A DNA stretch of 47,584 bases from a virus, in the IMG/VR virus record IMGVR_UViG_3300043331_001135, positions 1-47,584 of that record, one strand, 5' to 3'. Shown here piece by piece: positions 3,110 to 24,819 of this stretch. The translations under genes and the position numbers were made by a program. Every line of letters begins with the position of its first letter. The first letter of the stretch is position 1. Below the pieces are notes generated by a model, which had not been told where the DNA came from, made no database searches, and saw nothing but the letters and a program-made list of their open reading frames with translations.

Positions 3110-3448
3110 CTACCGCCCGTCGGGGTCGAGCTCGAACCGCGGGGCCTCCCACGATGAGCACAGCACCCGCACACGGGCCTCGGTGACGTACCGGCGCACG
3201 ATCGGGTGGCCGCTCGCCTCGTCGATCGGGTCGTCGACCAGGCCGAGCCACACCTCGCCGGGCTTGGTCGGATTAAGCCGCACTCGGGCCACCTCGCGCA
3301 CCCGGCCCTCGAAGGCGATCAGATCGCCAATCAGCAGGTCAGTGATCCGGCGCAGGACGTCAGCCGGGCCGGGCGCCTCATAGCGGCTTCCCACGGTCGT
3401 GCTCGCATCGGTCGCGGGAAGGGCGGGGGCCGATGGACGGTCAGACAT
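3110..3448 (-). CDS. Hypothetical protein
   Basis: 112 aa. The ATG at 3448 is preceded by GGAAGATCAA and lies inside the end of the upstream gene (8-base overlap), so the start is supported by both RBS and coupling. The middle reads ITDLLIGDLIAFEGRVREVARVRL, a strand-rich pattern consistent with a small beta-barrel such as a PRC- or SH3-like fold, but no family was recognised. Middle gene of a three-gene operon. Confidence 0.68.
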   Translation of the reverse strand: MSDRPSAPALPATDASTTVGSRYEAPGPADVLRRITDLLIGDLIAFEGRVREVARVRLNPTKPGEVWLGLVDDPIDEASGHPIVRRYVTEARVRVLCSSWEAPRFELDPDGR

Positions 3449-4277: not shown

Positions 4278-4317
4278 ACACTACACCCCCTTGCGTACCT
4301 GCTCAAGGGGGTGTAGT
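4278..4317 (-). promoter_or_regulatory. Palindromic operator-promoter 5
   Basis: Perfect 14-bp arms (4280-4293 and 4304-4317). Minus strand: -35 TTGAGC (4306-4301), 17 bp, -10 TAGTGT (4283-4278), directed at the gene starting at 4249. Confidence 0.8.
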
Positions 4318-4863: not shown

Positions 4864-5034
4864 TCATCCACCTTCGACCACACCGAGTGGGGGCGACCAA
4901 GCGCTGCAACCGATCTTTACCTTGAGCGAGCCCCCGTCATCCGCAACACGGACGGACTGTTCAGTCGCCTCGGCGAGGCTCAAATTATCAATGATGAGGT
5001 TGAGCTCGTCAGGACTCAGCAAGATGACTCTCAT
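4864..5034 (-). CDS. 56-aa hypothetical protein
   Basis: Read from sequence: MRVILLSPDELNLIIDNL... followed by a strand-rich half ending GVVEGG. The ATG at 5034 has GGGAGA about 10 nt upstream. Base composition is less GC-rich than its neighbours. It is joined to the next gene by a 3-bp gap. Function unknown. Confidence 0.55.
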   Translation of the reverse strand: MRVILLSPDELNLIIDNLSLAEATEQSVRVADDGGSLKVKIGCSAWSPPLGVVEGG

Positions 5035-5062
5035 GAGCAAGGTTCTCCCTTCGGGGGATCAA

Positions 5063-5089
5063 TCTCACGGCGTCCGCTGCGCCGTGAGA
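5063..5089. terminator. Short intergenic hairpin
   Basis: Perfect 10-bp arms TCTCACGGCG/CGCCGTGAGA with a 7-nt loop between the genes ending at 5107 and starting at 5034. There is no T-run, so it may attenuate or stabilise the transcript rather than terminate it. Confidence 0.4.
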
Positions 5090-5106
5090 AGGCCGTGATT
5101 TGGGTA

Positions 5107-5514
5107 CTACTCGATCGGCTCGTCGCCGGTCCTCTCGCCGGTCGGCTCGGTGGCGACGGAGTGCTCCCAAACCCCGGTACCGCCCGGCAAGCGGGCCGCG
5201 CCGACAACCTCGGCGACCGGCACCGTGCCGGATGTCCTGCGGGTGAAACGCACGAGCAGCACCTGCCCGGTGGTCTGGCCGTCCGGGTGCGCCCACAGCT
5301 CGATAGCCTCGGCGCCCTGCGTCCGGGCCAGCGTCACCCCGGCCGTGGTGTTGGCCGACCAGGCGGCCAAGGGGCGTCCGCCCCGCCACAAGAAGGCGTT
5401 GAACTCGGCCTGCCGGTCGCGATAGCCGATCAATACGCCATTGACCGGAACGAAGATCTCATCCGACCCGGCGGTCTTGGCCGCCTTGCTCATGGGGCGT
5501 GCGGTGCCTGCCAT
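5107..5514 (-). CDS. Hypothetical protein
   Basis: 135 aa. The ATG at 5514 is preceded by GAGGGAGAGTCG. It is beta-rich throughout (EIFVPVNGVLIGYRD, AFLWRGGRPLAAW, QVLLVRFTRR), suggesting a small beta-sandwich or barrel. It has no cysteines and no membrane segment. It is the first complete gene behind degenerate operator-promoter 6, with an unusually long leader of about 120 nt that holds no convincing reading frame. Confidence 0.68.
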   Translation of the reverse strand: MAGTARPMSKAAKTAGSDEIFVPVNGVLIGYRDRQAEFNAFLWRGGRPLAAWSANTTAGVTLARTQGAEAIELWAHPDGQTTGQVLLVRFTRRTSGTVPVAEVVGAARLPGGTGVWEHSVATEPTGERTGDEPIE

Positions 5515-5593
5515 CGACTCTCCCTCGTGAGGTGGCCCGGTACTTCGTCCGCGCCGGGCCGGTCGCGGTTGCCGCTTGCCTGCGGCGCCCCCA

Positions 5594-6316
5594 TCACCCC
5601 TTGGGGAGTTCACCAGCCGGGGGCTTGCTGACAGGTGAGACACTACTCGCACCCCCGGCAGTAGTCAAGGGGGTGGAGTAGTTCGTTCGGGTGATGTTCT
5701 CGACCGGCGCCGTCCGCGGCTCGGCGAGCTTGCCGCGCAGCCCTTGGGCCAGCAGGACGACGAGACCGAGCACCACGAGAGCGCCGGTCGCGACGACGAG
5801 CGCCGGAACCAGCGTGGCGGCGTCCGGCACGTACGGGTCGGCGGCGCGCAGCCCGAGGAAGGCCGCGAGCGCGAGCGCCCCGACCACGACCGCACCCCAC
5901 ATCCCGAGCCGGATCACGAGCCGGACGGCACCGATCGTGAACAGCACGATCGCCCTCGTCACGACGAAGACGCCATAGCCGACGATCAGTAGCGTCTTGC
6001 CGACGTCGCCCGCCGCCTGCGCGAGCTGCACGGTCTGCGACACCGGGGCGTCGGCCAGCACGGCGCCGGGCGTCCCGATCAGCAAACCGTCCGGCCCGTG
6101 GCACAGACCGGACCCGACCGGGCGCACCCGGCCGGGCAGCTCATAGCGAGAGCTCGCGTTCGCGAGCTGCACGGTCTTGGCCGCCATCGCCGAGGTCTTG
6201 AAGGGCCCGGCCCACCTCGACCCGCAGGTCTCGCACGAGGCGTAGTGGACATCTGCCGACTCAACCTCGGCCACGAGAGTAAGTGGATGGATCACGCCCT
6301 CGTCATCGATGTGCAT
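5594..6316 (-). CDS. Membrane protein with N-terminal Cys pair
   Basis: 240 aa. The cytoplasmic N-terminal region has CETCGSRW (about residue 28). Around residues 105-185 there are two to three hydrophobic helices (LLIVGYGVFVVTRAIVLFTIGAV, GAVVVGALALAAFLGL, LVPALVVATGALVVLGLVVLLAQGL). The last 35 codons run through operator-promoter 6, giving the tail TNYSTPLTTAGG. This suggests the original stop was lost or that the operator arrived inside the gene's end. The start at 6316 lies about 83 nt after the minus-directed half of the symmetric site at 6406-6453. Confidence 0.72.
   Translation of the reverse strand: MHIDDEGVIHPLTLVAEVESADVHYASCETCGSRWAGPFKTSAMAAKTVQLANASSRYELPGRVRPVGSGLCHGPDGLLIGTPGAVLADAPVSQTVQLAQAAGDVGKTLLIVGYGVFVVTRAIVLFTIGAVRLVIRLGMWGAVVVGALALAAFLGLRAADPYVPDAATLVPALVVATGALVVLGLVVLLAQGLRGKLAEPRTAPVENITRTNYSTPLTTAGGASSVSPVSKPPAGELPKG
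5640..5683 (-). promoter_or_regulatory. Degenerate operator-promoter 6 inside a coding sequence
   Basis: The promoter is intact on the minus strand: -35 TTGACT (5668-5663), 17 bp, -10 TAGTGT (5645-5640). One palindrome arm is disrupted (5642-5656 reads ACTACTCGCACCCCC against TCAAGGGGGTGGAGTAGT at 5665-5682). The site is translated as part of the upstream gene's C-terminus. Weaker repressor binding is expected. Confidence 0.7.
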
Positions 6317-6405
6317 ATTCCTTGATCCTTTCCGGTGGAGCGAACCGGGAGATCAGTCTCATCTCAACTTCCGATCACGTGATAAAGCGATTAGTCCCTG
6401 GTAGG

Positions 6406-6453
6406 ACCATACGCGCACCCCCCTTGCATACTCAAGGGGGGTGCGCGTATGGT
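6406..6453. promoter_or_regulatory. Symmetric bidirectional operator-promoter 7
   Basis: Perfect 21-bp arms (6406-6426 and 6433-6453) around a 6-bp spacer. The arms extend through TATGGT on both sides, so there is a promoter each way: plus -35 TTGCAT (6424-6429), 18 bp, -10 TATGGT (6448-6453); minus -35 TTGAGT (6435-6430), 18 bp, -10 TATGGT (6411-6406). It feeds the HTH gene at 6518 and the membrane-protein gene at 6316. Longest and most symmetric member of the family, as expected for the autoregulatory site. Confidence 0.8.
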
Positions 6454-6517
6454 AGGGAACATCATGTATTCCCGGCGACAGGGCCCGGGGTTCAGAACGT
6501 GAGGGGATGGCGGGAGG

Positions 6518-6787
6518 ATGACCACACAATCGGCGCGAGACGCGCTCGTTCGGCAGCTCGGCCTCGACGCCGAGGGGCAGGCCATGCTCGACCGGGTGAT
6601 CACCACGCAGCAGAAGATCGACAGGAAGCAGCGAGAAATCGACGCCTTGCTCGCGGTCCGTCGCCCGGACGTCCTCGGCCTGCACGGCCGCTACCGGGTG
6701 ACCAAGTACCGACTCGCGAAAGTGCTCGGCGTCTCGCAGACCACGGTCGGCAACATCACGCGAGAGCAGCCCGAGACGTCCGGCTGA
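6518..6787 (+). CDS. Small HTH DNA-binding protein, candidate repressor of the palindrome regulon
   Basis: 89 aa and the only plus-strand gene in the first 17 kb. Residues about 20-45 look like a coiled-coil dimerisation helix (MLDRVITTQQKIDRKQREIDALLAV). Residues about 60-82 fit a helix-turn-helix (YRVTKYRLAKVLGVSQTTVGNI), with the usual Ala and Gly positions. It is expressed from the symmetric palindrome 6406-6453 and insulated by the perfect terminator at 6812-6851. A dimeric HTH protein expressed from the strongest copy of a dispersed palindrome is the layout of an immunity or early-gene repressor. That role is inferred. GGAGG lies almost against the ATG, with a second purine run (GAGGGG) 11 nt upstream. 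Confidence 0.75.
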   Translation: MTTQSARDALVRQLGLDAEGQAMLDRVITTQQKIDRKQREIDALLAVRRPDVLGLHGRYRVTKYRLAKVLGVSQTTVGNITREQPETSG

Positions 6788-6811
6788 GACCCCTCCCGCC
6801 CACCGGACGCA

Positions 6812-6851
6812 GAAGGCCCCCACCTCGACAGGTTTCGAGGTGGGGGCCTTC
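6812..6851. terminator. Strong bidirectional terminator
   Basis: Perfect 17-bp stem (6812-6828 and 6835-6851) with a 6-nt loop between convergent genes: the HTH gene ends at 6787 and the minus-strand gene ends at 6940. The arms end in GAAGG and CCTTC, so a short T-containing tract follows each way. Confidence 0.85.
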
Positions 6852-18146: not shown

Positions 18147-18596
18147 ATGGACACCGCCTACTCTGCCGAAGAGATCAACAGATACGCCGCGGAATCGTCG
18201 TCGGGTTGGCGCACCGACCACCCGATGACTGCCACCGAGTTGATCGCCATCGCGGACGAACGGGGGTGGTGTGAGGAGTTCAACGAGTTGTTCAACCTGC
18301 TGACCGGCATCCCCTGCATCGAGCGGGCCGACGGGGACCGCGAGTGGTACCGGGACGGCAAGCTCCACCGCGAGGACGGTCCGGCGGTCGAGCTGGCCGA
18401 CGGCTCTCGCGAGTGGTACCGGGACGGCAAGCTCCACCGCGAGGACGGTCCGGCGGTCGAGCGGGCCGACGGGGACCGCGAGTGGTACCGGGACGGCAAG
18501 CTCCACCGCGAGGACGGTCCGGCGGTCGAGCTGGCCGACGGGGACCGTTGGTGGTACCGGGACGGGAAGCCCCATCGCGAGGACGGTCCGGCGTGA
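18147..18596 (+). CDS. DGPA-repeat protein, probably leaderless
   Basis: 149 aa. Residues 1-58 form a helical N-terminal domain (MTATELIAIADERGWCEEFNELFNLLTG). Residues 59-149 are four tandem 23-residue repeats containing WYRDGKLHREDGPAV. Such repeats are known from many phage and bacterial hypothetical proteins and resemble MORN-type beta-hairpin repeats. Repeats 1-3 are nearly identical and the fourth has diverged (RWWYRDGKPH). The start is 7 nt after the -10 box. The stop overlaps the WhiB start (GTGA). Role unknown; repeat surfaces of this kind often bind proteins. Confidence 0.78.
   Translation: MDTAYSAEEINRYAAESSSGWRTDHPMTATELIAIADERGWCEEFNELFNLLTGIPCIERADGDREWYRDGKLHREDGPAVELADGSREWYRDGKLHREDGPAVERADGDREWYRDGKLHREDGPAVELADGDRWWYRDGKPHREDGPA
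18321..18593. repeat. Four tandem 69-bp repeats in coding sequence
   Basis: Units of 69 bp encode 23 residues each, and the last lacks its final codon. Units 1-3 differ at only a few bases, so they can expand or contract by slippage without changing the frame. Confidence 0.88.
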
Positions 18597-19306: not shown

Positions 19307-19602
19307 GCAGCGAATCGACGGGCCTCGGCTGGCCCGAGACTGCGGATGAATCGACTACAGATCACCTATGTCCTTACCGGTCGGTTCTTGACGAACTGCG
19401 GGCGCAAATCACGGATGAAATCTCCCGCGTCGGTTCCGCCGCCGAGCGAGCCGCAGATAACGGTCGCCAGGCATCGGCGACCGCTCTCGGTGGAGTTGCG
19501 GGTGGCCTCCTCCTGGCCCGCCGCCTACTGAATTCGCTACACCCGGACGGCGCGGGGGTTGACTTTCCGGGGGCCTCGAAGAACAGTGAGGTGCAGGAAT
19601 GA
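19303..19602 (+). CDS. Small hypothetical protein
   Basis: 99 aa, coupled at both ends (ATGA with WhiB and ATGA with the nuclease gene). A helical segment (LDELRAQITDEISRVGSAAERAADNG) is followed by a Gly/Ala-rich moderately hydrophobic stretch (ATALGGVAGGLLLARRLL), too short and too small for a sure membrane helix. Function unknown. Confidence 0.65.
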   Translation: MSSESTGLGWPETADESTTDHLCPYRSVLDELRAQITDEISRVGSAAERAADNGRQASATALGGVAGGLLLARRLLNSLHPDGAGVDFPGASKNSEVQE

Positions 19603-20687
19603 GCGCCCTCGACGTGAGCCGCGACGTCGGGGTAGAGGTGTACGAGTGCGATTTCGAGCCCACGGACCTGCACGACCCGCTCGACTTCGACGACATCGAG
19701 GTGGCACCGGCGCGCCCGGCCAAGCCCTATGACCTGCTCGACGAACTCGGCGTTCCGCGTGATCAGTGGGGCCGCCCGCTGCTGCTGCCCGACCCGGCAT
19801 GGGGCCTCGCCCCGGCCGCCTGGCCCGACGGCAAGGTCGAGAAGCGCCAGTCGGCCGACGGCCGCCGCCACTTCGCCCGGGTGAGTACTGCGTCCGGGTG
19901 GAACGACGTCGCCCACGGCCTCTCACTGTGGCGGCAGCGGATGGCGCTGCTCGCGCTCGCCCGGCGCCCCGACTTGCAGGCCGAGCTCTGCGGGCTCGTC
20001 TACTCCGACGGCAAGCGCATCGACGCCATCACGGATGAGCTGCTCATCCGGGCGGCCGACGACGGCATCGACATCGACGAGGCGATCAAGGTCAAGCCCG
20101 GCGAGACGCACGTGCCGATGGGAGGCACGCTGTCGGCGGCCAGCCGCGGTACCGCGTGGCACGCCTTCACCGTGCCCGGCGCGCCGGTCATCGACCCCAC
20201 CTTCGGGCCGACCCTCGCGCAGTACGACATCACGGCGAAGGCGTTCGCCGAGGCGCTCGAACGGTGCGGCCTCGAACTGCTCGTGCACGAGCGCTTCGGC
20301 GTCGACTACGCCCGGCGGCTCGCGGGCACCGTCGACCACCTCGCCCGCGTGGTCAAGGCGACCAAGTTCTCGGCCGCCGCCGGTCTCGACGTCGGCGCGG
20401 TGATCGTGCTCGACAAGAAAACGGGCAAGATGCAGTGGATCACGCACGCGACGCAGCTCGCGATGTACTCGCGCTGCCGCCCGCACGACTGGCGCACCGG
20501 CGAAACGCAGGACTGGCACGCCGACCTCGTGCCGGACGTCGGCGGCCTCGCTGCCGCCTCGATCGAGACGGGCAAGGTCAAGATCTACCCGGTGAAGACG
20601 CCCGCCTACCTCGCCGACTCGGCGGTCGAGCGGTACCGGCTCAGCCTGAGCGACCACGTGAACAGCCTCGTCGGAAAGGGGTTCTGA
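19599..20687 (+). CDS. Cas4/RecB-family exonuclease
   Basis: 362 aa. PD-(D/E)XK nuclease motifs in order: GTAWHAF with His188; AGTVDHL with Asp246; VLDKKTG with Asp272 and Lys274; then QLAMY with Gln286 and Tyr290, the QxxxY motif of RecB/Cas4-type nucleases. I do not see the Cas4 iron-sulphur cysteine set, so it is closer to RecB-type single-domain exonucleases. The first 180 residues are a phage-specific extension. Likely used in recombination or end processing during replication. Its last 12 codons are part of a 39-bp direct repeat shared with the next gene. Confidence 0.88.
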   Translation: MSALDVSRDVGVEVYECDFEPTDLHDPLDFDDIEVAPARPAKPYDLLDELGVPRDQWGRPLLLPDPAWGLAPAAWPDGKVEKRQSADGRRHFARVSTASGWNDVAHGLSLWRQRMALLALARRPDLQAELCGLVYSDGKRIDAITDELLIRAADDGIDIDEAIKVKPGETHVPMGGTLSAASRGTAWHAFTVPGAPVIDPTFGPTLAQYDITAKAFAEALERCGLELLVHERFGVDYARRLAGTVDHLARVVKATKFSAAAGLDVGAVIVLDKKTGKMQWITHATQLAMYSRCRPHDWRTGETQDWHADLVPDVGGLAAASIETGKVKIYPVKTPAYLADSAVERYRLSLSDHVNSLVGKGF

Positions 20688-20689
20688 TG
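20651..20689 (+). repeat. 39-bp direct repeat, left copy
   Basis: Identical to 21346-21384. It covers the last 12 codons and stop of the Cas4-like gene and the ATG of the methyltransferase (both proteins end DHVNSLVGKGF). The two copies bracket the methyltransferase gene exactly, 695 bp apart. Confidence 0.95.
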
Positions 20690-21382
20690 CGCGTCCTTGA
20701 TCTCTTCTGCGGGGCCGGGGGCGCCGCACGCGGATACGCCGACGCTGGGTTCGAAGTGGAGGGATGGGACATCGATCCGCAACCCCGCTACCCCTTCGCG
20801 TTCCATCGAGGCGATGTCCTCGACGTGCTGCGCGATATCGACTACGTTCGTTCGTTCGACTTCGTGCACGCCTCACCGCCGTGCAAGGTGCACACCGTAG
20901 CGCGGCACGTCATCCGGCCCGGGGCGAATCGCAAGCACGCCGTTGATCTGATCCCACAGACACGCGATGCCCTGCTCGTGGCTGAGGTGCCGTTCGTGAT
21001 CGAGAACACCCCGGGAGCGCTTCTCGTCGACCCCGTGATTCTGTGCGGATCGATGTTCGGTCTCGGTGTCCGCAGGCATCGCCTCTTTGAGGCGCATGCT
21101 ATTGAGCTGCCACAGCCGGAGTGCCAGCACGCGAAACAGGATGCGGCCGGGAAGATCTATCCGGTGCGTCGGTACCACAGCGGGGAGCCGGTCATCACGA
21201 TGTCGTCGGTCGTTGGCGTGTTCGGTCATGGGCAGGGGCTCGGTCCTGGCGAGGTCGATCTCTGGCGCCAAGCAATGGGGATCGAGTGGATGACTCGCGA
21301 CGAGCTCGCTCAAGCGATCCCGCCCGCCTACACGCGGTGGATCGCCGACCACGTGAACAGCCTCGTCGGAAAGGGGTTCTGA
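20687..21382 (+). CDS. Short DNA C5-cytosine methyltransferase (cassette)
   Basis: 231 aa. Motif I is LDLFCGAGGAARG at the start (S-adenosylmethionine binding), followed by GWDIDPQP (motif II), then ASPPCK with the catalytic Cys66 (usual PCQ replaced by PCK), PFVIENTPGA (the ENV motif) and RRHRLFE. It is much shorter than typical Dcm enzymes and has almost no target-recognition domain, as in several actinophage homologues. Likely modifies phage DNA against host restriction (inference). Start at 20687 by TGATG overlap. The C-terminal DHVNSLVGKGF is encoded by the direct repeat. Confidence 0.88.
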   Translation: MRVLDLFCGAGGAARGYADAGFEVEGWDIDPQPRYPFAFHRGDVLDVLRDIDYVRSFDFVHASPPCKVHTVARHVIRPGANRKHAVDLIPQTRDALLVAEVPFVIENTPGALLVDPVILCGSMFGLGVRRHRLFEAHAIELPQPECQHAKQDAAGKIYPVRRYHSGEPVITMSSVVGVFGHGQGLGPGEVDLWRQAMGIEWMTRDELAQAIPPAYTRWIADHVNSLVGKGF

Positions 21383-21384
21383 TG
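21346..21384 (+). repeat. 39-bp direct repeat, right copy
   Basis: Identical to 20651-20689. It covers the last 12 codons of the methyltransferase gene, its stop and the ATG of thyX. Recombination between the copies would leave a perfect Cas4-TGATG-thyX junction. Confidence 0.95.
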
Positions 21385-22131
21385 ACCGACTGCGCACAGC
21401 CGCGGTTCGCGCAGGCCGAGAAGAGCGTCGTCGTCCTGCGGTCCGACATGCGGGTCGAGCTCATCGACTCGATGGGCAACGACGCCTCGGTCGTCCGGGC
21501 CGCGAGGGTCTCGACCGCCGGTCAGTCGGCCGCCCGCTACGTCGAGCACGAGCGCGACACCGGGCTCGTGCACTACCTCATGCGCAACCGGCACGGCTCG
21601 CCGTTCGAGCACGCGGTGTTCACGTTCTACGTCGAGGCGCCGATCTTCGTCTGGCGCGAGATCATGCGGCACCGCATCGCCTCGTACAACGAGGAATCGG
21701 CGCGCTACCGCAAGCTCGAACCGGTGTTCTACGTGCCGGACAGCTTCCGGAACGTCCGGCAGGGCGGCACGTCGGCCCACCCGCGGCTGACGGCCGGTAC
21801 GGCGGCTCAGCACGAGGCGGTCGAGGATGAGCTCATCCGGTCCTCGACGGCGGCCTACAGCGCCTACGAGCGGCTGCTCGCGGCCGACATCGCCCGCGAG
21901 GTGGCCCGGATGGTGCTGCCCGTCAACATCTACAGCTCGGCCTACGTGACCATGAACGCCCGCGCGCTGATGAACTTCCTCTCGCTGCGGGTCGAGGATG
22001 AGGGCGCGACCTTCCCCTCGCACCCGATGCGCGAGATCGAGCTCGTCGCCCGGAAGTTCGAGGCGATCTTCGCCGAGGTCATGCCCACGACGCACGCGGC
22101 GTTCCTCGGCAACGGCCGCGTCGCGCCGTAG
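21382..22131 (+). CDS. thyX: Flavin-dependent thymidylate synthase
   Basis: 249 aa. The ThyX signature RHRIASYNEESARY is at residues 96-109 (RHRxxSxNxxSxRY form), preceded by HGSPFEHAVFTFY and followed by a helical C-terminal half (AREVARMVLPVNIYSSAYVTMNAR) with the usual ThyX pattern. It converts dUMP to dTMP using methylene-tetrahydrofolate and FAD, supplying thymidylate for phage DNA synthesis. The start at 21382 overlaps the upstream stop as TGATG. Length is normal for the family. The 256-bp gap after it holds a promoter and a structured leader. Confidence 0.96.
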   Translation: MTDCAQPRFAQAEKSVVVLRSDMRVELIDSMGNDASVVRAARVSTAGQSAARYVEHERDTGLVHYLMRNRHGSPFEHAVFTFYVEAPIFVWREIMRHRIASYNEESARYRKLEPVFYVPDSFRNVRQGGTSAHPRLTAGTAAQHEAVEDELIRSSTAAYSAYERLLAADIAREVARMVLPVNIYSSAYVTMNARALMNFLSLRVEDEGATFPSHPMREIELVARKFEAIFAEVMPTTHAAFLGNGRVAP

Positions 22132-23344: not shown

Positions 23345-24109
23345 ATGACCACGAAGGGCAAGGACGGACCACCGCGGATCACCAACGCCAGGAAATGTCG
23401 CGCCCGCATCGTCATCAACAAGGAAGACGTCGGGCCCTGCACCGAGCCGACGATCGACCCGCGGTCACCCTATTGCACATGGCACCGGCTCGACCGCACC
23501 ACCTACCCCGGGCAGGGCCGCGCCGCCGAGCTGCGCCTCGCCGCCGCCCCCGTTCCGCACCGGCAGCGAGTGCCGCCGACCGAGTGGCCTCCCGGCTACC
23601 GGTGGTGCTCGGGGTGTCAGTCGTTCGTGCCGGTGTGGTACTGCCAGGGGACCAAGTGCAAGGCGTGCAAGCGGGCCGACGCGCAGGCGGCCCGGCGCCG
23701 CGATGTCTACGGCCTCGCCGACGCCGCGTGGCAAGCGATCATGGAGTTGCAGGGCGGTCGGTGTGCGATCTGCCGGAACCGTTCGCGCGACCGGGCGCCC
23801 GCGGTCGAGCACGACCACGGCACCGGTAAGGTCCGCGGGGGCTGCTGCAAGGGCTGCAACCATGACCTGCTCGGTGGCGCGCACGACTCGCCCCGGATGC
23901 TCGCGGCGGCCCTACTGTACCTGCTGGCCCCGCCGACATCCGGCCGGTGGGTCCGGCCCGAGGAAGGCGCCGACGCCGTGCTGCGAGCCGTCGGCGAGGT
24001 GATCGAGGCGCTCAATGCGGAGGGACGGGCGCGCAGGCTGGCCGACGAGGCGCTCGCGCTGCTCGACCGGTCCTCGCTCGATGATGAGGATGAAGGGACT
24101 GATCTGTGA
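23345..24109 (+). CDS. HNH-type recombination endonuclease VII
   Basis: 254 aa. The endonuclease VII domain spans about 130-185: WQAIMELQGGRCAICRN, then VEHDHGTGKVRG with His156-Asp157-His158, then GCCKGCNHDLLGG. This is the zinc-binding, H-N-H-like Holliday-junction resolvase core of the T4 gp49 group. Two further zinc pairs (CSGC and CKAC) lie before it, and the N-terminal part is basic. Expected to resolve branched replication intermediates before packaging. ATG at 23345 with GGGAGAGGGC upstream. The stop overlaps the next gene (TGATG). Confidence 0.85.
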   Translation: MTTKGKDGPPRITNARKCRARIVINKEDVGPCTEPTIDPRSPYCTWHRLDRTTYPGQGRAAELRLAAAPVPHRQRVPPTEWPPGYRWCSGCQSFVPVWYCQGTKCKACKRADAQAARRRDVYGLADAAWQAIMELQGGRCAICRNRSRDRAPAVEHDHGTGKVRGGCCKGCNHDLLGGAHDSPRMLAAALLYLLAPPTSGRWVRPEEGADAVLRAVGEVIEALNAEGRARRLADEALALLDRSSLDDEDEGTDL

Positions 24110-24819
24110 TGTCGCGGCCACGCCTGCTTAATCTCTGCTGCTGTGGTGGTGGATCATGCGCCGGATACGAACGCGCCGGATTCGAGGTATGGGGGGTCGA
24201 CATCGACCCACAGCCAAGTTATCTGAATCCGGAAAGGTTCATTCGGGCCGATGCCCTCGAAATCATCGCCGATACGTCATTCATGAAAAGTTTCTCGGCC
24301 GTTCACGCCTCGCCACCATGCCAGTCGTACTCTCCCCTTAACGCCTACAACAAGAAGTCATATTCACGGCTCATCGAGCCGATCAGGGAAGCCATTCTCC
24401 GACATGATATGCCAGGTGTGATAGAGAATGTACCAGGCGCCCCTCTCCGGTCTCCGATAACACTGTGTGGGTACATGTTCGATGGGCTGATGGTGGAACG
24501 GCATCGTCTGTTCGAAACGATCGGCTTCGACGTCGAGCAGCCGCCTCATCCCGTTCACTCACTACGGTGTACGCGGAACGGGTATCTTCCGACCGATGAC
24601 GCCCCGCTCATGTCGATCCACGGCGGGAAGCATTCGAAAGCATGGCAGAGAAGGGCATGTGAGGTCATGGGCGTTCCCTGGCTCGCCGTCCCGGAGGCAT
24701 CTTCGACGGAGCGGACCAGGCGGGGGATTCGCGAGGTCTGCGAGGCTATTCCTCCGGTCTACGCCGAGTTCATCGGAAAACACTTGATGCGTCAGGTCAC
24801 TAACGAGGCGACATCGTGA
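24109..24819 (+). CDS. Second short DNA C5-cytosine methyltransferase
   Basis: 236 aa. Same layout as the methyltransferase at 20687 but with a divergent motif I (LLNLCCCGGGSCAGY instead of LDLFCGAGG). GVDIDPQP, ASPPCQSYSPL with catalytic Cys71, GVIENVPGAPL and ERHRLFE are all present, and a recognition domain is nearly absent. The reading frame is visibly less GC-rich than endonuclease VII and DnaE on either side, suggesting a separate origin. Overlaps both neighbours (TGATG and GTGA-type). Confidence 0.85.
   Translation: MSRPRLLNLCCCGGGSCAGYERAGFEVWGVDIDPQPSYLNPERFIRADALEIIADTSFMKSFSAVHASPPCQSYSPLNAYNKKSYSRLIEPIREAILRHDMPGVIENVPGAPLRSPITLCGYMFDGLMVERHRLFETIGFDVEQPPHPVHSLRCTRNGYLPTDDAPLMSIHGGKHSKAWQRRACEVMGVPWLAVPEASSTERTRRGIREVCEAIPPVYAEFIGKHLMRQVTNEATS

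Follow-up and report, generated by a model that had tools for sequence, protein, structure and literature searches.

The window analyzed here, a 47,584-nt stretch of virus record IMGVR_UViG_3300043331_001135, carries a gene of foreign composition for a predicted C5-cytosine DNA methyltransferase between two replication genes, an exonuclease gene and thyX, and bracketed by two exact 39-bp copies of the exonuclease 3' end. This arrangement was probably produced by a recent illegitimate or short-homology insertion of a horizontally acquired methyltransferase, which would have duplicated the end of the upstream gene. The host of the virus is probably a member of the soil actinobacteria. All features described at this locus lie on the plus strand.

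The direct repeat, CGACCACGTGAACAGCCTCGTCGGAAAGGGGTTCTGATG, is present without mismatch at positions 20651-20689 and 21346-21384, with a spacing of 695 bp between the two copies. The first-pass annotation had reported that such repeats bracket the methyltransferase and encode the same 11-residue C-terminus, stop and next ATG, and our analysis agrees on both points: the DHVNSLVGKGF-stop-ATG unit joins the exonuclease C-terminus to the methyltransferase start in copy 1, and the methyltransferase C-terminus to the thyX start in copy 2. The 3'-end DNA of the exonuclease and methyltransferase genes is identical in the same frame at 39 of 39 nucleotides. Each copy is a complete gene junction: it holds 11 final codons, a Shine-Dalgarno-like ribosome-binding site, and a TGA stop that overlaps the ATG of the following gene by one base (TGATG). 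The Shine-Dalgarno-like stretch, GGAAAGGGG, is located at 20673-20681 in copy 1, where it would serve the methyltransferase, and at 21368-21376 in copy 2, where it would serve thyX. Its calculated duplex with the 16S tail has an energy of -12.5 kcal/mol, which beats 500 of 500 random 20-mers. The next-best match to the 39-mer on both strands of the window has 16 mismatches, thus excluding chance as the source of the repeat. The 20-mer core is not closely matched elsewhere in the ~69-kb genome IMGVR_UViG_3300036844_000071, where the next-best site has five mismatches; a genome-wide repeated element is ruled out, since the 39-mer and its core are confined to these two sites.

The repeated 3' end belongs natively to the upstream neighbor, a Cas4/RecB-like exonuclease of 362 aa (19599-20687), identified from its ORF, its orthologs, and its matches to PHROG 466 (E = 4.7e-22) and PHROG 298 (E = 1.5e-5). 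The protein had no match in Pfam, and its structure model, with a pLDDT of 32, was too poor for use. The downstream neighbor, thyX (21382-22131), encodes a flavin-dependent thymidylate synthase of 249 aa (Pfam Thy1, E = 4.3e-51; PHROG 85). Orthologs of the exonuclease total only three; none was found in cellular genomes or named phages, and no further ones in viral contigs. The 12-residue tail of the protein is kept in three phages with a single change.

The inserted gene (20687-21382) encodes a protein of 231 aa whose final 11 codons are derived from the exonuclease. It matched PHROG 363 (E = 6e-35) and contains motifs I (DLFCGAGG), IV (SPPC), VI (EN), and VIII (RHR), in which C8, G11, G12, S63, P64, P65, C66, E106, N107, R130, H131, and R132 are invariant or nearly so across 42-45 family members. 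Comparison of its AlphaFold model (pLDDT 90) with the PDB by Foldseek gave M.HaeIII (1dct, E = 6.9e-9) as the best match, with M.HaeIII and DNMT3A as the closest structures (E values of 7e-9 to 3e-8). The score for Pfam PF00145 was 20.0 bits against a curated cut-off of 22, and the protein belongs to a short, divergent phage subfamily. By its motifs and modeled fold, it is a predicted C5-cytosine DNA methyltransferase. Phage methyltransferases are usually read as a protection from restriction, and an anti-restriction role is plausible for this one as well.

Both the composition and the C-terminus of the methyltransferase set it apart. Its GC3 of 0.77, compared with 0.94 for the exonuclease and 0.97 for thyX, marks the gene as foreign. 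Nearly all of the ~84 family members surveyed have an IPPAYTxxIGxQ-like end followed by unrelated tails of variable length, whereas the methyltransferase of the window ends in IPPAYTRWIADHVNSLVGKGF. Its residues 221-231 match the exonuclease C-terminus, making the tail a chimeric one, borrowed from the upstream gene; in the model, a C-terminal helix (213-228) is predicted to extend through the first part of the borrowed residues. At the other end, the family-typical start, Met followed by RxLDLFCGAGG, is intact, which places the left join at the ATG itself. The closest relatives of the methyltransferase are ~45-50% identical in protein, and none is near enough to be the donor or to reveal what the native tail was.

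A second record of the phage, IMGVR_UViG_3300036844_000071, is identical to the window across the region, including both repeat copies and the gene, and where the two records differ over 43.6 kb, they do so close to the ends of the alignment. It may come from the same population, in which case it is not independent evidence. A form of the locus without the cassette, which the first-pass annotation had suggested looking for in related phages, was found in contig 3300044265_000021 (L009), where the exonuclease, with 93% DNA identity to that of the window and ending in SEHVNSLVGKGF-stop, is followed directly by thyX. In contig 3300044210_000034 (L008), an exonuclease with the same C-terminus is present with neither the methyltransferase nor thyX. 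The outcome that had been named as evidence against the cassette, namely that all relatives carry the methyltransferase without repeats, is thus not what these genomes show. Both have a single copy of the repeat sequence at the exonuclease end, and the occurrence of the same C-terminus in these two methyltransferase-free phages identifies the repeat as the native end of the exonuclease. The exonuclease 3' junction is therefore a site where gene content varies between relatives. The sibling G001 was left out of this comparison because its contig ends inside thyX. The exonuclease gene of the window shares 91% identity with that of L008, against ~70% for most of the L008 genome, so that it was probably exchanged between these phages.

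The junction reads TGATCATGGCTGAC in L009 and TGATGACCGAC in the window. Relative to L009, both copies in the window carry the variants of the window lineage (GAC for GAG, GGG for GGA, and TGATG for TGATC), indicating that the duplicated piece originated in that lineage. The copies show zero differences over ~37 sites; had both existed since the divergence from L009, the chance of this would be 6%, so that a recent date for the insertion is only moderately supported.

We propose that a horizontally acquired methyltransferase ORF entered the exonuclease-thyX junction through two illegitimate or short-homology joins, or through a double template switch. The left join would have been made at the ATG start codon, and the right join at GACCACGT of the exonuclease, inside the part of the methyltransferase ORF that encodes its C-terminal helix. 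On the target, the right join would lie 39 bp further upstream than the left one, so that the exonuclease 3' end would have been duplicated and not deleted; joins in the opposite order would have deleted the exonuclease end, and such a lineage would be lost to selection. In this way the methyltransferase would have acquired its C-terminal tail from the exonuclease, along with a ribosome-binding site and the TGATG overlap, with thyX retaining its own. The repeat would then be a scar, kept since only in-frame, non-destructive outcomes survive, and it would secondarily render the gene precisely deletable via homologous or annealing recombination. The polarity of the change, an insertion and not a loss, rests on few genomes, given that only three exonuclease orthologs are available. 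Other members of the PHROG 363 family occupy differing sites in the window and a sibling, which points to mobility of this methyltransferase family among these phages. What counts against an insertion of this kind is that, when the window is compared with its siblings, ~20 other insertion borders have no repeat of >12 bp; a duplicated gene end is thus not the usual outcome in these phages, and such repeats were rejected as a general trait of their insertions.

The same structure could reflect repeated gain and loss of the gene by recombination at the 39-bp repeats, a circle or donor that bears one repeat copy restoring the gene, although we regard this as unlikely. When the repeats were collapsed in silico, the product (...GGGGTTCTGATGACCGAC...) kept both the exonuclease and thyX frames intact, as had been predicted for a recombinational loss that leaves the TGATG coupling in place. 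A predicted product that would be fully functional, repeats that are exact over 39 bp, the existence of the empty relatives L009 and L008, and a phage exonuclease encoded next to the site are all in keeping with such cycling, and RecA is not needed in E. coli for deletions between short direct repeats (PMC5426353). However, the empty junction of L009 reads TGATCATG-thyX and not TGATGACC. The difference suggests a never-inserted or separately diverged allele rather than the exact product of a deletion, although an old product could have drifted, the exonuclease gene of L009 being ~7% diverged. Moreover, the predicted product was in none of the viral contigs searched: an exact 38-base pattern matched only the second record, at both copies, and a degenerate pattern matched only the three known phages. 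The gene is also present in both records of the phage. Of the clean gain and loss that the first-pass annotation had envisaged, we therefore retain the part concerning potential, that the gene is deletable in principle with its neighbors unharmed; actual gain or loss along this route is not documented by L009 or by the contigs. It is still less probable that the common ancestor had the gene and its repeats, and that L009 lost the gene and changed its junction later. A repeat-mediated loss would be mechanically easy, yet additional junction changes would be required in L009, L008 likewise has no methyltransferase, and both copies share the variants of the window lineage; the foreign composition of the gene and the zero divergence of the copies favor a recent gain.

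Two further explanations concern the repeat itself. If the tail were a selected C-terminal peptide common to the exonuclease and the methyltransferase, such as a docking tag for the replication machinery, its conservation over 12 residues in three phages with one change would be expected, and in the model it appears to continue a helix; nevertheless, the identity also takes in synonymous sites together with the stop and the following ATG, a pattern that peptide selection does not account for, and the tails of other family members are unrelated. We consider this explanation highly improbable. A direct repeat around an insert also resembles a target-site duplication made by a site-specific element or a transposase, to which we give almost no credence: the insert consists of the methyltransferase alone, with no recombinase; its ends, CGCGTCCTTGAT and GCGGTGGATCGC, are not terminal inverted repeats; the repeat is unique in the genome; and a second and a third methyltransferase have no repeat. 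On the same grounds of a single-gene insert with no recombinase and no inverted ends, a transposon or insertion sequence was ruled out. 

An event of this kind is already known in mycobacterial phages. In Island3, the C-terminal 18 residues of gene 68 match those of the upstream gene 67, and Brujita has one copy (Pope et al., 2011; PMC3029335). On re-checking these genomes, we found that the ends of genes 67 and 68 share 54 of 60 nt with a one-base TGATG overlap, and that Brujita, at gene 66, has one copy. As in the window, the 3' end of the extra gene repeats that of the upstream gene, the gene-free relative is single-copy, and the stop/start overlap is the same. Two things set the cases apart. 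Mismatches between the copies number 6 of 60 nt in Island3 and none over the 39 bp in the window, and the extra gene of Island3 is an 85-aa orphan, whereas that of the window belongs to a known methyltransferase family, from whose members its tail clearly departs. The window thus has the same architecture as the published Island3 case, and is a cleaner example by virtue of its exact repeats and the family-level view of its insert. In mycobacteriophage LRRHood, a 1.35-kb insert lies between 29-bp direct repeats that are single-copy in relatives (Cali) (PMC3029335). It resembles the window in its exact flanking repeats, one copy of which is within the end of the upstream gene, but it comprises four genes plus intergenic space and not a one-gene in-frame junction.

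Gene-boundary repeats that could serve homologous shuffling of modules are also a feature of phage boundary sequences and of the T4 PeSL cassettes, as cited in two papers (PMC3029335, PMC4503421). Unlike these elements, the window 39-mer is unique in its genome and contains no promoter-terminator hairpin. Like a moron in the published definition (PMC3029335), the methyltransferase lies between two shared genes and is missing from a relative; unlike one, it is translationally embedded in the operon, and its one-base overlaps with both neighbors leave no room for a promoter or terminator of its own, so that it is not a moron.

Long flanking repeats were rare among related methyltransferases. Across 90 loci of the family, the only other flanking repeats of >14 bp were found in Streptomyces phage Nesbitt (L014; 29 bp), L081 (19 bp), and L051 (17 bp). 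Short ones flanked ~6 of 80 methyltransferase loci compared with 5 of ~334 other ORFs, and also 11 of 326 ORFs in thyX contigs. Flanking repeats were therefore rejected as a general trait of the family, the long ones being rare and the short ones modestly more common. In Nesbitt, the repeat (2429-2457 and 3138-3166) brackets a methyltransferase, starts at about the stops of the upstream primase and of the methyltransferase, and runs into terminator-like hairpins; it is apparently a repeated terminator. In L051 (860-1620), two methyltransferase genes, one of which may be a remnant, lie in tandem and have a nearly identical C-terminal segment in common.

We also scanned 1.53 Mb of viral DNA for neighboring ORFs with the same stop-anchored 3' end. 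The scan recovered the window case, Island3, L103 (ATCAAAGGAGAGCAGAAGTGA), and L116 (CGTGGGGAGGCGTCGTGA). In each of L103 (~6800-7400) and L116 (~5000-6300), about four small genes in a row have one 3' end in common, which includes a Shine-Dalgarno stretch and a GTGA overlap; the genes sharing a junction look unrelated in L103 and related in L116. This suggests that such junctions may be reused. An apparent second case in sibling G004 was dismissed, as it was a 204-bp repeat covering a dispersed hairpin, reached via ORFs on the apparently wrong strand. A speculative extension, which we consider doubtful, is that gene ends (C-terminal codons, ribosome-binding site, and stop/start overlap) are copied between genes as portable junctions, allowing phages to insert, delete, or shuffle single operon genes with translation unbroken. 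If so, the window locus would exemplify this process, and the gene runs of L103 and L116 would represent a different stage of it. The window opens no new mechanism, and its value is that of an unusually clear snapshot of a phage taking a single foreign gene into a tight operon, with the neighbors unharmed and the empty site known. Selection for intact neighbors would leave duplicated gene ends behind, and such inserts may be easily lost again.

Further features were noted in the window and its relatives. A second, divergent methyltransferase of the same family (~40% identical) is encoded at 24106-24819 on the plus strand; it is specific to the window lineage and not present in the siblings. 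Another member of the family, at 2333-3019 of L009, is found only in that sibling. Both genes tightly overlap their neighbors and have no flanking repeats. The L009 exonuclease is interrupted at a DKK|TGK site by an intein (5823-6797). Its first residue is Gly, W follows the DEH block, Cys precedes ...THN, and the +1 residue is Thr; in these features it resembles the class-3 inteins. In G001 (contig 3300025980_000030), dnaE is interrupted by an intein with an HNH-type nuclease region (FNK|CTAGDTV...THN|SHTAGYG), and this intein is missing from the window dnaE. A 69-bp in-frame tandem repeat at 18319-18593 of the window, which did not align to sibling G004, encodes a weakly MORN-like 23-residue repeat (REWYRDGKLHREDGPAVE). 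Finally, a near-perfect inverted repeat, ACTACACCCCCTTGAGC-N4to8-GCTCAAGGGGGTGTAGT, recurs about ten times, dispersed across the 69-kb genome, including 345-380, 2786-2823, 4280-4316, 8528-8565, and 9968-10011 of the window, and also occurs in G005, G003, G004, and G001; it looks like a shared family of terminators or operators.
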